Positions 3,828 through 7,400 of a DNA stretch of 7,400 nucleotides are shown here, one piece after another. The notes beneath the pieces were generated by a model, which was not told where the DNA came from, searched no databases, and saw only the letters and a list, made by a program, of their open reading frames with translations. A program made the translations under genes and the position numbers. The first letter of the stretch is position 1, and each line of letters starts with the position of its first letter. Source of the DNA: Sphingomonadaceae bacterium (lineage in GTDB: Bacteria; Pseudomonadota; Alphaproteobacteria; Sphingomonadales; Sphingomonadaceae); the NCBI GenBank assembly GCA_020446665.1, contig JAGREF010000224.1, positions 1 to 7,400 of the forward strand, given 5' to 3'.

Positions 3828-4087
3828 TGACTGACAATATCACTCAAAATCCAGAAGACGAATGGCAGAATAGCGGATTGGCCGCCACTCATCTGTATGC
3901 TGGGGCCTTGCGCACCTTGCATCGCACCAACCCGTGGGAGAACATTCCAGTCTTGCCTCAGGCAATATGTCATTTGATGACAGAGTTATGGGATTTCGGA
4001 TTTACGCAGACACAAATAAGAGAAGCCTTTGAGCAAGCACTTGTTGAGCTTCCCAAATACACGGTCGGAGAAGAGGTCAGACCCTAA
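3827..4087 (+). CDS. 86-aa orphan protein coupled to ggt
   Basis: The ATG at 3827-3829 overlaps the ggt stop codon by one base (TAATG). A good Shine-Dalgarno GGAG (3818-3821) lies five bases upstream, inside the ggt end, so translation is probably coupled. An open frame extends upstream, but that part only shadows ggt. The 86-residue product begins MTDNITQNPEDEWQNSG and ends GEEVRP. It is acidic, has three Trp (13, 37, 55), no signal peptide and no membrane span. The middle and C-terminal parts (about 17-32 and 60-76, TQTQIREAFEQALVELP) look helical, so a small cytosolic helical protein is likely. I do not recognise a family. My hand count gives about 48% GC, far below the neighbours, and it uses codons rare in such genomes (ATA twice, AGA twice, TTA once). 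This suggests recent acquisition or a fast-evolving orphan. Its stop interlocks with that of convergent pyrD. Confidence 0.8.
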   Translation: MTDNITQNPEDEWQNSGLAATHLYAGALRTLHRTNPWENIPVLPQAICHLMTELWDFGFTQTQIREAFEQALVELPKYTVGEEVRP

Positions 4088-5127
4088 ATCTCACTACCCA
4101 CCGCCTCGGCTACGCTCGCAAACCCGTCGCGCACCATCAGCTTTTCCAGCCCGCTGGTGATGCATTTGGCGATCCCCGGCCCTTCATAGACCATCGCGCT
4201 GTATAGCTGGACGAGGCTCGCCCCGGCGCGGATACGTTGCCACGCGTCTTCGGCTGTAGCGATGCCGCCCACGCCGATCAGCGGGATGGCCCCGCCTGTG
4301 GCCTTGCGGAAATCGCGCAGCCGCTCCAGCGCCATGGCTTTTAACGGCGCGCCCGATAGCCCGCCCGTCTCGCCCGCATGGCGCGATTTCAGCGCGGGGC
4401 GTTCAATCGTGGTGTTGGAGATAATCAGCGCGCCCAGCTGCTTGTCCATTGCAATGCGGGCAATTGCATCGACATCGGCAGGCGTCAGATCGGGCGCGAC
4501 CTTGAGGAAGACCGGAGGCGGATTGTCGTGAATCACCGCCGCACGCGCTTCCAGCACGCCATCGAGTAGCCCGGTCAGCGCGGCCTCATCCTGCAGCGCG
4601 CGCAGGCCCGGCGTGTTGGGGCTGGAAATATTGACCGCCAGATAAGTTGCGAGCGGGGCCATGATCCGCGTCATGGTGGAATAATCGGCCACCCGGTCAG
4701 CGGCGTCCTTGTTCGCGCCGATATTGATCCCGACAATTCCGGGATTGTGCCGCCGTGCTGCCAGCCTTTTCGCTGCCGCTTCTGCGCCGCCATTGTTGAA
4801 CCCCATGCGGTTGATCACGGCGCGGTCTTCGCTGAGGCGGAACAGGCGCGGTTTCGGATTGCCCGGCTGCGGCAGGGGCGTGATCGAGCCAACCTCGGCA
4901 AAGCCAAAGCCCAGCCCCAGCAGCGCATCGGGCACTTCGCCATCCTTGTCATAGCCAGCGGCCATGCCCAGCGGATTGGGGAAGGTGATCCCGGCCACAT
5001 CCACCGCCAGCTTTCCCGGCACGGGCAGCTTGCTCTTTGGCATCATGCGCAGGGCAGACAGGCTCAGCCGATGGGCGTCTTCCGGCTGGAAGGCAAATAT
5101 CGCGGGGCGGATAATATCGAACAGCAT
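4084..5127 (-). CDS. pyrD: dihydroorotate dehydrogenase (quinone), class 2
   Basis: This membrane-associated flavoenzyme oxidises dihydroorotate to orotate, the fourth step of pyrimidine synthesis, passing electrons to the quinone pool. Numbered from the ATG at 5125-5127 it has 347 residues. The N-terminal helical part (1-40, MLFDIIRPAIFAF...DAHRLSL) is the membrane/quinone segment typical of class 2. The FMN barrel follows: GMAAGYDKDG at 54-63, PRLFRL at 93-98, NRMGFNN at 106-112, NISSPNTPGLR at 166-176 with Ser169 as catalytic base (a Cys in class 1), FLKVAPDL at 207-214 with Lys209, ISNTT at 236-240, GGLSG at 255-259, GVGGI at 285-289 and the phosphate-binding QLYSAMVYEGP at 307-317. A TTG 54 bases further upstream would add 18 residues unlike the family, so I chose the ATG. 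The Shine-Dalgarno is weak (AGGCGG). It converges with the ggt-linked orphan, with a 4-bp overlap covering both stop codons. Confidence 0.96.
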   Translation of the reverse strand: MLFDIIRPAIFAFQPEDAHRLSLSALRMMPKSKLPVPGKLAVDVAGITFPNPLGMAAGYDKDGEVPDALLGLGFGFAEVGSITPLPQPGNPKPRLFRLSEDRAVINRMGFNNGGAEAAAKRLAARRHNPGIVGINIGANKDAADRVADYSTMTRIMAPLATYLAVNISSPNTPGLRALQDEAALTGLLDGVLEARAAVIHDNPPPVFLKVAPDLTPADVDAIARIAMDKQLGALIISNTTIERPALKSRHAGETGGLSGAPLKAMALERLRDFRKATGGAIPLIGVGGIATAEDAWQRIRAGASLVQLYSAMVYEGPGIAKCITSGLEKLMVRDGFASVAEAVGSEI

Positions 5128-5184
5128 GCACCGCCTATGGCAAGCGTCCGGCGTGCTGTCGAGCAGCGAAGGCAGACCCAATAG

Positions 5185-5206
5185 CCCGGATTTGCCGGGT
5201 ATTTTT
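5185..5206 (+). other. GC hairpin followed by a T-rich tract
   Basis: CCCGG (5185-5189) pairs perfectly with CCGGG (5195-5199) around a 5-base loop ATTTG and is followed by TATTTTT. On the + strand this resembles a weak intrinsic terminator, but no + strand gene ends just upstream. Its left arm also takes part in a longer-range 8-bp inverted repeat with 5232-5239. It could stop antisense transcription entering from the pyrD side, or be a DNA operator for pyrD or the small RNA. The role is unknown. Confidence 0.35.
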
Positions 5207-5244
5207 CACAAAGATGACAGGTTTGGCCATGAAATCCGGTCACC

Positions 5245-5263
5245 TATGTCGAATCCATACAAT
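5245..5263 (+). promoter_or_regulatory. candidate -10 elements for the predicted small RNA
   Basis: TACAAT at 5258-5263 is close to the TATAAT consensus and would place the transcript start near 5269-5271, just before the first hairpin; its -35 region is weak. An alternative is TATGTC (5245-5250) with TTGGCC (5223-5228) at a 16-base spacing, starting near 5257. Either would give a transcript of about 110-125 bases ending at the terminator. Assigned by eye. Confidence 0.3.
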
Positions 5264-5269
5264 CCTGAA

Positions 5270-5381
5270 TCAACCCTTTGGCGTAGCAAGGCTTTGCGAC
5301 CCGAAGGGCTCGAGGCAGCGATGCAACGAGTTCCTCAACTTCAGAGGGCGGTTTTCAGCGATGGAAGCCGCCCCTTTTTTT
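5270..5381 (+). ncRNA. predicted structured small RNA with three hairpins
   Basis: Three consecutive hairpins are visible on the + strand. Hairpin 1: CCCTTTGG (5274-5281) pairs with CCGAAGGG (5301-5308) over eight base pairs including one G-U; inside it GCAA (5286-5289) pairs with TTGC (5294-5297). Hairpin 2 starts at the next base: CTCG (5309-5312) with CGAG (5327-5330), a small purine internal loop, then GCA/TGC closed by a GCGA tetraloop (5318-5321). A single-stranded linker of 15 bases (5331-5345) containing UUCCUC follows, then the terminator hairpin, also with a GCGA loop. The G-U pairs would be A-C mismatches on the other strand, so the + orientation is supported. The shape (5' hairpins, exposed linker, terminator with U-tail) is typical of trans-acting sRNAs, some Hfq-dependent. 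I do not recognise an Rfam family: it does not look like SRP RNA, 6S, tmRNA or a known riboswitch. The 5' end is approximate. Confidence 0.6.
5346..5381 (+). terminator. strong intrinsic terminator with GCGA tetraloop
   Basis: The stem GGGCGGTTTTCA (5346-5357) pairs with TGGAAGCCGCCC (5362-5373) over 12 uninterrupted base pairs, two of them G-U (5352-5367 and 5355-5364). The loop is GCGA (5358-5361), a GNRA tetraloop. Seven T follow at 5375-5381. On the minus strand the G-U pairs are lost and there is no T-tract, so it works on the + strand. No protein gene ends upstream on that strand, which implies a noncoding transcript. It also insulates the AraC-type gene downstream. Confidence 0.88.
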
Positions 5382-5442
5382 CGTGCCTCGCCTGACCGCC
5401 CGCCCGCTTCCCGACTGGCCTAATTGCCACACTTCTCGGGAA

Positions 5443-5470
5443 TTTTGCGTACTTGCCTGTTGCCTAATAT
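5443..5470 (+). promoter_or_regulatory. candidate promoter of the AraC-type gene
   Basis: TAATAT at 5465-5470 is a good -10 hexamer, preceded at 16 bases by TTTTGC (5443-5448), a poor -35 match. It lies after the terminator and would give a leader of roughly 55 bases before the GTG at 5533. Assigned by eye; a regulator-dependent promoter would be expected to have a weak -35. Confidence 0.3.
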
Positions 5471-5532
5471 GGCGATGCTGCCCCATAGCGCGCACAAACA
5501 GGGGGTTGGCCAGCGGGCCATTCATTCAGAAC

Positions 5533-6429
5533 GTGACAGTCGCGCCGTCGCCATACACTTTCAGCTTTCTGCCTGCTCCGGCGGATCTGCAGCCCTATGT
5601 GAATGCCCTTTACCTGTTCGGGACCGAGCGGGAGATGCTGGTGGAATCGCTGCCTGCCTATTCCGCACAGCTGGCGATTTTCGTCACAGGCTCAACCGAG
5701 ATCGACCTGCCCAACCCGCCTGTTGGAGAGGTTGGCGATATATTTTTCCTCGCGCCGCAGATGAAGGCCTCGCCCTTTGTCGCCTATGGGCCTGTGCATG
5801 GGGTGGGGGTGTCATTCACCGCGCAGGGCTGGGCTGCGCTGGCGGGCCGGTCGGTGGATGAATGCCATAGCTGCCAGCTTGCCCCCGATGCGTGTCTGCC
5901 CGAAGACATGGCGCGGCGGCTGGATCAGTTGCTGGCGCTGCGGCGCGAAGGGCAGATTTCCGATGCGGCCCTGGCAGAGGGGCTGGCTGATGCAGTGCGG
6001 GCGGGGATAACGCCGCTGTCGGAACGGCACACGGCCTTGCTGCGCACGACATTTCAGTGGCTGGGGGAAAGCTGGTCACCGCGGGTGGAGGATCTCTATG
6101 CGCGCCTGCCCTTTTCGCAGCGGCAGGCACAGCGGCTGATCGTGCGCTTTTTTGGCCAGCCCCCGGCCACGCTGATGCGCCGTTATCGCGCGATCCGGGC
6201 GGCGACGTTCCTGTCCATGCCACAGGTTCCGCCCTTCATCCTCGAACAGATTCGCGATGCCTATTACGATCAGGCGCATTTCATCCGCGATATTCGCGAA
6301 TTTACCGGGCGCACCCCGTCACGGCTGGGGCCGGATGAAGAGACAGTGATCAAGGATATGCTCAGCCCCGCCGGGCACGGGCTGGTCGATCCTTTCGCCG
6401 CGACAGTGAATGAGCAGCCCTGCGAGTAA
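5533..6429 (+). CDS. AraC-family transcriptional regulator
   Basis: From the GTG at 5533 the product has 298 residues, normal for an AraC-type regulator. The N-terminal half (about 7-110) has the PADLQPYVNALY opening and the HGVGVSFTAQGWAALAG segment seen in AraC regulators with a DUF6597-type sensor domain, whose ligands are mostly unknown. The C-terminal DNA-binding domain (about 184-266) has two helix-turn-helix units: VEDLYARLPFSQRQAQRLIVRFFGQ, then ILEQIRDAYYDQAHFIRDIREFTGRTPSRL, with the characteristic F-x-R-x-F-TG-x-TP ending. The frame is open back to 5383, but those extra 50 residues are Cys/Pro-rich, unlike the family and start directly after the terminator, so I prefer 5533; no strong Shine-Dalgarno supports either. 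The target is unknown: pyrD and the SUF genes are not typical AraC-type targets, while the adjacent small RNA or the gene itself are possible. Confidence 0.88.
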   Translation: MTVAPSPYTFSFLPAPADLQPYVNALYLFGTEREMLVESLPAYSAQLAIFVTGSTEIDLPNPPVGEVGDIFFLAPQMKASPFVAYGPVHGVGVSFTAQGWAALAGRSVDECHSCQLAPDACLPEDMARRLDQLLALRREGQISDAALAEGLADAVRAGITPLSERHTALLRTTFQWLGESWSPRVEDLYARLPFSQRQAQRLIVRFFGQPPATLMRRYRAIRAATFLSMPQVPPFILEQIRDAYYDQAHFIRDIREFTGRTPSRLGPDEETVIKDMLSPAGHGLVDPFAATVNEQPCE

Positions 6430-6445
6430 ATGCTAACGACTCGCA
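6421..6445 (+). terminator. possible weak hairpin over the AraC-type stop codon
   Basis: TGCGAGT (6421-6427) and ACTCGCA (6439-6445) form a perfect 7-bp inverted repeat with an 11-base loop, covering the TAA stop. No T-tract follows directly, so it is at best a weak or Rho-assisted terminator, or an mRNA 3'-end stabiliser. Confidence 0.3.
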
Positions 6446-6448
6446 ACA

Positions 6449-6476
6449 AGCGGTTTTCCGTTGAAAGAGCGGTTTT
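6449..6476 (+). repeat. two direct copies of AGCGGTTTT, 19 bp apart
   Basis: AGCGGTTTT occurs at 6449-6457 and again at 6468-6476, a 19-bp step close to two helical turns, upstream of the Rrf2-type gene. It overlaps a possible -35 (TTGAAA, 6461-6466). It could be a tandem regulator site or chance. Confidence 0.4.
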
Positions 6477-6489
6477 GCGTGCATAGGTG
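6461..6489 (+). promoter_or_regulatory. candidate promoter of the SUF operon
   Basis: TTGAAA (6461-6466) and TAGGTG (6484-6489) are separated by 17 bases. The -35 is good and the -10 is weak. Transcription would start near 6495, inside the left arm of the adjacent palindrome, so a bound repressor would block it. Assigned by eye. Confidence 0.35.
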
Positions 6490-6490
6490 A

Positions 6491-6513
6491 ATTCGGAACA
6501 AATTGGTCCGAAT
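6491..6513. promoter_or_regulatory. 23-bp near-palindromic operator upstream of the Rrf2-type gene
   Basis: The arms ATTCGGA (6491-6497) and TCCGAAT (6507-6513) are exact reverse complements. The centre is also symmetric except at one base pair: CAA and TTG flank the middle position, so ten of eleven pairs match. It ends seven bases before the ATG at 6521. Size, symmetry and position fit the dimer-binding site of an Rrf2-family regulator such as IscR, so autoregulation of the SUF operon is the likely role. This is inference; I do not match it to a published consensus. Confidence 0.65.
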
Positions 6514-6520
6514 TGAGAAT

Positions 6521-6937
6521 ATGCGCCTGTCCAACCTTGCAGACTATGCTGTCGTCACGATGAGCGCCGCCGCGCGCCATTGCGGCGGAGCGCGGGTTTC
6601 CGCCGCCCAACTGGCGGAAGAGACCGGCCTGCCCGCGCCTACGGTGCAGAAACTGGTCAGCCGATTGACCGCCGCGGGCCTCCTGCGTTCGATCCGCGGG
6701 GCGGGCGGTGGATTGCAACTCGCGCGTCCGGCGGCGGCTATCAGCCTGGCCGACATCATCGAGGCGGTCGAAGGGCCGATTGCGCTGACTTCCTGCGTCG
6801 AACAGGGACGGCACGAGTGTTCGCTCGAGGGGTGCTGCACCGTGCGCCCGCACTGGCCCGTTGTGAACGACGCCCTGCGCGGCGCGCTGGCGCAAGTCCC
6901 GCTGACGCAGCTTGCCCGGATGGAAGCCCACGCATGA
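6521..6937 (+). CDS. Rrf2-family Fe-S regulator of the SUF operon
   Basis: This 138-residue protein resembles IscR and the Rrf2-type SUF-system regulators. The opening MRLSNLADYAVVTM is characteristic of Rrf2 proteins. The winged helix-turn-helix covers about 26-70: VSAAQLAEETGLPAPTVQKL as helices, RSIRGAGGGLQLARP as wing. A cysteine cluster follows, with Cys92, Cys100, Cys105, Cys106 and His111, in the place where IscR binds its [2Fe-2S] cluster, though with different spacing and one extra Cys. The expected role is to sense Fe-S status and control suf transcription. I start at ATG 6521; the frame continues back to TTG 6503, but those codons lie in the operator and precede the conserved Met. 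The Shine-Dalgarno is weak (GAG at 6515-6517). The stop overlaps the sufB start at ATGA, so the two are co-translated. The adjacent palindrome suggests autoregulation. Confidence 0.93.
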   Translation: MRLSNLADYAVVTMSAAARHCGGARVSAAQLAEETGLPAPTVQKLVSRLTAAGLLRSIRGAGGGLQLARPAAAISLADIIEAVEGPIALTSCVEQGRHECSLEGCCTVRPHWPVVNDALRGALAQVPLTQLARMEAHA

Positions 6938-7400
6938 CCGAAGAAGTGAAAGACCAGCAGGCGCGCGAAGCGGCGGCGAAAGTTGCCGACTACGAACATG
7001 GCTGGTCGGCAGACATCGAGCAGGAATTTGCGCCCAAGGGGCTGAACGAGGACATCGTCCGCTTCATTTCCGCCAAGAAGAACGAGCCGGCCTGGCTCAC
7101 CGAATGGCGGCTCGAAGCCTATCGGCGCTGGCTCACCATGACCGAGCCGACCTGGGCGCGGGTCAGCTATCCGAAGATCGACTTCCAGAACATCTACTAT
7201 TACGCGGCGCCGAAGAGCACGTCGGGGCCGAAGAGCCTCGACGAGGTCGATCCGGAACTGCTCGCCACCTACGAGAAGCTCGGCATCCCGCTTAAGGAGC
7301 AGGAAATCCTCGCCGGCGTGCGGAAGCACGGCGAGCCGTCGGAACTCGATGGCGAAACCGGCGACAATGTCTACGCATCCGGCAATGTCGCCGTCGACGC
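6934..7400 (+). CDS. sufB: Fe-S cluster assembly scaffold protein SufB (5' part)
   Basis: The first 155 residues are present; the gene runs off the window. SufB forms the SufBCD scaffold with the ATPase SufC and with SufD, assembling Fe-S clusters from sulfur supplied by SufS/SufE-type proteins in the cytosol. The family's N-terminal signature is clear: KGLNEDIVRFISAKKNEP at about 35-52, EWRLEAYRRWLTM at 57-69, SYPKIDFQNIYYYAAPK at 78-94 and LDEVDPELLATYEKLGIPL at 102-120. The metal- and cluster-related residues lie further downstream and cannot be checked. From about residue 130 to 151 an acidic, glycine-containing segment (KHGEPSELDGETGDNVYASG) precedes the conserved VAVDA; E. coli SufB, as I remember it, has no counterpart. 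The ATG at 6934 overlaps the regulator's stop (ATGA). sufC, sufD and sufS are expected next but are not in view. Confidence 0.95.
   Translation, partial: MTEEVKDQQAREAAAKVADYEHGWSADIEQEFAPKGLNEDIVRFISAKKNEPAWLTEWRLEAYRRWLTMTEPTWARVSYPKIDFQNIYYYAAPKSTSGPKSLDEVDPELLATYEKLGIPLKEQEILAGVRKHGEPSELDGETGDNVYASGNVAVD

Follow-up and report, generated by a model that had tools for sequence, protein, structure and literature searches.

One sphingomonad small RNA (sRNA) with a named target has been characterised in the literature that we searched, namely SuhB of Sphingopyxis granuli TFA, which is described as a trans-encoded, Hfq-dependent RNA of 61 nt that binds the 5' UTR of thnR and lowers its translation (PMC6563040). 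For GsrN of Caulobacter, the published account describes a terminator, target pairing through a 5' region and a full-length form influenced by Hfq, and it gives the blastn hits of this RNA as confined to the Caulobacteraceae (PMC5869019). Based on the comparative evidence presented here, we propose that the window, a stretch of 7,400 nucleotides from a Sphingomonadaceae bacterium (assembly GCA_020446665.1, contig JAGREF010000224.1), encodes a further sRNA on its + strand (Table 1). Judged from the comparison of related sequences, the existence of a conserved RNA gene at this pyrD-adjacent site is almost certain. The family is new as far as Rfam and the literature searched tell, and it is of a known kind, that of the trans-acting sRNAs. 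None of the 4227 Rfam families reached its gathering score, either in the window or in 17 related loci, and no description of the RNA appeared in the titles and abstracts of the open-licence literature among the matches listed. The core claim of a previous, sequence-only reading of this DNA, that of a new + strand sRNA outside known families, is thus supported by the Rfam comparison that had been proposed with it and by compensatory changes in relatives. As that reading also stated, the sequence upstream of the RNA has no evident protein gene on the + strand, pyrD lying on the - strand with its start near 5127. The RNA is common and sharply bounded, its promoter motif is specific enough for fishing out the regulator, and sphingomonads are a group much used to degrade aromatic pollutants.

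Table 1. Features of the window (positions counted from its first letter) and the evidence for each
Feature	Position	Strand	Evidence
Predicted small RNA, 86 nt	5296..5381	+	Start from promoter anatomy; end from terminator
Promoter box TGTCGAATCCATACAAT, predicted activator site centred near -41	5247..5263	+	Spacing to GCGACCC in copies
-10 element TAGCAA, TA at -12/-11	5284..5289	+	Base composition in the 49-base group (98 copies)
Unpaired 5' tip GCGACCC, proposed seed	5296..5302	+	Folds of 57 copies; conservation
Conserved hairpin GGGCUC/GAGUUC, inner GCA/UGC	5306..5333	+	Compensatory changes
Linker CUCAACUUCAGA, possible Hfq contact	5334..5345	+	Largely unpaired in fold; variable among copies
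Intrinsic terminator, 12-bp stem and seven T	5346..5381	+	All 11 counted pairs change on both sides (A2, A3)
pyrD, quinone-dependent dihydroorotate dehydrogenase, divergent neighbour	4084..5127	-	
rrf2-type SUF regulator gene	6521..6937	+	TIGR02944, 122.1 bits against a cut-off of 110.65
sufB, cut by the window end	6934..7400	+	Best NCBIfam match PRK11814.1 SufB, 162.3 bits

The fold that is supported consists of the unpaired GCGACCC tip, the hairpin at 5306-5333 (5306-5311 with 5328-5333, and an inner part joining 5315-5317 to 5322-5324), the linker and the terminator. The predicted RNA, 5296-5381, folds at -37.1 kcal/mol (z -3.05), a value that none of 200 shuffles equalled; for the wider stretch 5240-5395, z is -2.59 and two of 200 shuffles were equally good. 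Three alignments bear on the conservation of this structure. In A1, which holds 18 blastn rows turned to one strand before aligning, 29 cells change on both sides of a pair against 9.1 in shuffles, and no shuffle out of 500 was as high on any of the five measures. A2 is a plain MAFFT alignment of 55 diverse copies, its rows having been chosen for CGACCC; it was built from 60 representatives, two of them lengthened (L002 and L018), with the omission of L134, L197 (cut short), L127, L260 and L261 (strongly diverged). L134, a Flavobacteriales-labelled record of 13.8 bits, has no promoter box. In A2, 16 of the 20 pairs change on both sides (0/500 shuffles) and 88.8% of cells pair; no shuffle among 500 was as high on four of the measures and a single one was on the fifth. 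A3, whose 53 model hits were aligned by way of the structure and which therefore leans towards it, has 17 of 20 pairs changing on both sides and 96.9% of cells paired (0/500 shuffles). When the partners are slid by 1-3 columns, pairing falls to 39-57% in A1, A2 and A3. The compensatory substitutions by which the sequence-only reading proposed to be judged are therefore present in relatives: L353 has AAGAUC with GAUCUU (by eye), L276 has GAAC with GUUC, and some relatives have A-U, G-C or U-A in place of the stem's two G-U pairs. The argument from G-U pairs for the + strand also holds, since the conserved stem contains G-U pairs, which are standard only on that strand. A mini-hairpin at the 5' end, CCC-GAA-GGG, was considered and rejected: 97% of cells pair, without covariation, CCC being invariant and GGG changing in 3 of 55 rows.

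The terminator stands as originally described. Its stem (5346-5373) is followed by C and seven T, and its 12 pairs are the longest among four terminator-like sites in 4000-7400, a number of sites that is not above that in shuffles (mean 3.2). A second + strand terminator-like site, with six pairs and ATTTTT, is located near the pyrD start (5184-5200). The hairpins drawn upstream of the terminator in the sequence-only reading have to be revised. Hairpin 2 (5310-5331) forms in the fold of 5296-5381, but is lost from the minimum-energy fold of 5240-5395, in which its bases pair with 5382-5391, past the terminator. The GGG assigned to hairpin 1 belongs instead to the longer conserved hairpin GGGCUC/GAGUUC. 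Terminator-like stems are plentiful in GC-rich genomes, and weak matches of up to 33 bits to a covariance model of the family (R1, see below) occur in 11 genomes outside the Sphingomonadaceae, as might be expected of a chance cluster of hairpins or of a repetitive terminator element; such an origin is nevertheless refuted by covariation, near-fixed promoter spacing and synteny, and we give it practically no credence. A short coding gene is extremely improbable as well: open frames do cross the region, but the two frames tested had no Pfam match, and the copies differ by insertions and deletions in loops while the RNA pairs are kept.

The 5' end is predicted from the anatomy of the promoter. 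In 149 of 151 copies, a box TGTCG-N4-CATACAAT with at least 10 of 13 letters is found 49 bases (98 copies) or 50 bases (51 copies) before the G of GCGACCC. These 151 copies are distinct and were selected for exact GCGACCCGAAGGGCTC, the invariance of their tip being given by construction. Many of them were obtained with a pattern containing ACAA, so these letters of the box are also partly conserved by construction; TGTCG, CAT and TA lie outside that pattern. Counting the G of GCGACCC as +1, the 49-base group has T in 97% and A in 100% of copies at -12/-11. In the 50-base group the TA is less pronounced and is mostly shifted upstream by one base (T 62%, A 60% at -13/-12). Scarcely anything but this TA is conserved between box and tip in the 149 promoters. 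A spacer of constant length and free sequence looks like a promoter, and 5296 is therefore the predicted start. This leaves the 5' arm of hairpin 1 (5274-5289) outside the RNA: hairpin 1 forms in the fold of 5240-5395, but its 5' arm precedes the predicted start, the stacking of hairpins 1 and 2 falls away together with it, and the size of 110-125 nt first proposed is replaced by a predicted 86 nt. Six or more contiguous pairs between the promoter spacer and ACCCGAAGGGC were found in 20% of the 151 copies against 12% of shuffled spacers, a slight excess.

The box was also recovered at loci collected independently of it. Among 58 copies that were located with blastn or covariance models or retrieved as hits of these searches (61 rows minus the chance matches L064 and L214 and a second-strand match in L229), 52 have a box of at least 10 of 14 letters at a spacing of 48-50, whereas, after shuffling, 42 of 3050 upstream stretches scored as high as 10. 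The six copies below this score are L218, L219, L223, L227, L348 and L354. When the pattern TGTCGNNTNCATACAAT was used, 67 sites were obtained in 58 of 249 family genomes, and its reversed control gave none. Inspection of 44 box sites (44 loci) placed 21 ahead of a recognisable sRNA. Seven of the 23 others turned out to be diverged sRNA copies (L249, L257, L260, L261, L273, L276, L277), and by eye a PyrD-like frame lies beside five of these, L249 and L261 being the unclear cases. The remaining 16 sites have no obvious gene in common, and two of them (L240, L241) are inside one coding frame; genes for LysM, PEP-CTERM and GGDEF proteins (Pfam) are included among the other box sites. No regulator could be named from the box scans and the inspection of the 44 sites. 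In one locus (L060 of genome G016, 1437-1517), three promoter boxes follow each other in a row, 31-32 bases apart, and by eye they adjoin a MarR-like frame and a long secreted-looking frame.

Plain blastn with 5205-5400 matched 18 of 98 relatives, the window's own genome included, and the covariance model R1 was built from these 18 copies. With E up to 1e-3, R1 matched 229 of 397 Sphingomonadaceae genomes, a count whose weak end is unsafe because a class-wide scan (13 of 240 genomes matched) gave 11 matches of at most 33 bits outside the family, next to two of at least 88 bits inside it, one of these in the window's own genome. A second model, R2, was built from 55 diverse copies and matches the window at 5296-5379 with 79.9 bits. 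With E up to 1e-8, it was found in 165 of the 397 Sphingomonadaceae genomes and in 48 of 96 genera, the other 232 genomes having no match. At 1e-5, it matched 25 of the 98 relatives, all of them Sphingomonadaceae, and none of 39 Sphingomonadales genomes outside that family. In the scans made, this sequence family was thus found with confidence only in the Sphingomonadaceae. Records with promoter and tip, among the 80 matches listed, mostly bear the labels Novosphingobium, Erythrobacter, Altererythrobacter, Qipengyuania and Porphyrobacter. Plasmid and phage collections held no match to the window RNA.

The usual arrangement of the locus appears, from the sequences compared, to be pyrD (divergent), the RNA, rrf2 and sufB. 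Homologues within 3 kb of the 151 copies were counted at no fewer than 136 copies for PyrD, 92 for Rrf2, 81 for SufB and 64 for the AraC-type protein, these being lower bounds because many loci are cut short. In the window, the score of sufB is under the full-length cut-off, the gene being cut, and SufB chains were matched in the PDB; the AraC-type label corresponds to an HTH_18 match of 31.3 bits, under the Pfam cut-off of 33.6. Just before the rrf2 start codon, at 6490-6514, a palindrome AATTCGGA...TCCGAATT can be seen by eye and may be a binding site of the Rrf2 regulator itself. The closeness of the sufB homologues, together with the fact that rrf2 homology starts about 150-300 bases past the RNA start in many rows among the matches listed, would suit a 5' leader of a downstream araC or rrf2-suf transcript, the terminator then acting as a regulated attenuator. 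However, the AraC homologue, where present, often stands between the RNA and rrf2, and the terminator pairs are formed in 86.8% (A2) and 96.3% (A3) of cells. Moreover, the RNA is not bound to this site. When 20 regions around R1 hits were fetched from nine multi-copy genomes, nine copies were at pyrD and 11 elsewhere. Around seven of the 11, none of the window's neighbour proteins found a match, and all seven have the box; the other four (L218, L219, L223, L227) lack the box, and judged by eye their neighbouring frames seem unrelated. Positions as free as these are in keeping with an autonomous RNA gene and argue against a suf leader, and we consider the leader explanation quite unlikely.

Some of the copies away from pyrD have features of their own. 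Five (L213, L215, L221, L224, L229) lie in similar surroundings: Pfam identifies SSB, a RES toxin and an Xre antitoxin in L213 and a YAcAr protein in L215, and frames resembling those of L213 and L215 appear in part in L221, L224 and L229. These SSB/YAcAr/RES-Xre surroundings look like a mobile island; the island copy of the RNA was unmatched in the plasmid collection. The RNA sequence of L132, a Henriciella-labelled MAG record, is identical to that of L229. The four box-less copies L218, L219, L223 and L227 read GCGACCCAAAGGG or GCGACCCGGAGGG. Those with GCGACCCAAAGGG (L218, L223 and L227, in genomes G185, G237 and G344) share another upstream sequence, ATCAAAAGTTACTGGATCATT, and siblings may thus answer to different signals.

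An autonomous gene of this design probably acts in trans. We consider it likely that the window RNA pairs through its 5' tip GCGACCC with mRNAs carrying GGGUCGC, and that it is probably assisted by Hfq. Its anatomy is that of the Hfq-type trans-acting sRNAs: a short RNA with its own predicted promoter and an intrinsic terminator, a U-rich end, an unpaired conserved tip in the predicted folds and no tie to one neighbour gene, in organisms that have hfq (6/6 genomes searched). A linear, unpaired tip is the usual form of a pairing seed. In the predicted folds of 57 copies (the 60 representatives without L002, L134 and L197), the mean unpaired probability of the first seven bases is 0.74-0.99. The tip GCGACCCGAAGGGCTC is present in all 18 blastn rows, which were not selected for it, and is followed by the hairpin, the linker and a terminator that is rich in GC and carries a T run. 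All 25 R2 hits among the 98 relatives, the window's own included, begin with GCGACCCGA while their stems have changed, a count that is supportive and not independent because the rows from which R2 was built had been selected for CGACCC. According to the scheme that we propose, a putative activator would bind the box centred near -41, in a class II geometry, and transcription would begin at 5296, the G of GCGACCC. Hfq would then hold on to the U-rich 3' end of the RNA, and pairing of GCGACCC with GGGUCGC in mRNAs would alter the translation or stability of the targets. The hfq locus has a peculiarity: in the window's own genome (G000:C376:2166-2591) and in five relatives, two Hfq domain matches lie 237 bases apart, and the open frames given for them are equally long (182-219 aa, depending on the genome), which suggests that Hfq is here one double-domain protein.

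The search for targets covered 16 genomes. A perfect complement of the first 11 bases occurs at 108 sites, a number that includes copies of the RNA itself; the reversed control, which differs in codon make-up, has 233 and is exceeded by the complement in three of the 16 genomes. Most of the complement sites fall within unrelated coding sequences, on one strand or the other. With 20 further sites fetched, the 39 complement sites outside the RNA (from 50 loci) showed, by eye, no recurring gene or position relative to a start codon. The seed reading thus comes without target support, no recurring target having emerged for the 11-base complement. The same result, the strong conservation of the tip and the presence of several copies in some genomes would also agree with a role in binding or titrating a protein, or in soaking up other RNAs via GCGACCCGAA, without pairing to mRNAs. 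Yet the tip is linear and predicted to be unpaired, and we regard such a role as unlikely; the pairing of GCGACCC with mRNAs remains the mechanism that we prefer. A broader picture, which we offer as speculation and hold to be possible and yet doubtful, is that sphingomonad-specific sibling sRNAs with one seed form the RNA arm of a regulon. One activator would read the TGTCG-N7-TACAA box before the sRNA and before a few genes (LysM, PEP-CTERM, GGDEF), and extra copies would travel in the SSB/RES-Xre island, influencing the mRNAs of their hosts.

How does this RNA compare with the described systems? The alphaproteobacterial family suhB/MmgR (RF00519, 77 model positions) and the window RNA seem alike in plan, with hairpins, a pyrimidine linker and a terminator. 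RF00519 was also the best + strand Rfam match below thresholds, in a weak alignment over the whole model (5319-5388, 16.2 bits, E 0.83), which could suggest a diverged member of that family. This score is, however, far under the cut-off of 41 bits, and suhB is a separate gene: the same genome has its own suhB over the cut-off (G000:C113:1525-1602, locus L037, 55.8 bits), the only match in G000. Among the 98 relatives, 79 have suhB over the cut-off, several copies being present in some. R1 found nothing at locus L037, and at 30 suhB loci the scanned stretches contained no box site above 10/14. Membership in RF00519 is refuted by the score and by the separate suhB gene, and we judge it highly improbable. 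The SuhB of Sphingopyxis has a reported 61 nt against the predicted 86 nt of the window RNA. Transcription of GsrN depends on the general stress sigma factor, whereas the promoter of the window RNA has a different box. The consensus of general stress promoters is GGAAC, 16-17 bases and CGTT; it is absent from the composition of the 149 promoters, which show TGTCG...CATACAAT and TA instead. Because suhB is a separate gene that R1 misses, and because the promoter is not that of GsrN, the window RNA is probably neither SuhB nor GsrN. Sibling sRNAs in general are several copies with one seed; in some genomes, several copies of the RNA described here likewise keep one tip, with varied stems and partly other upstream sequences.
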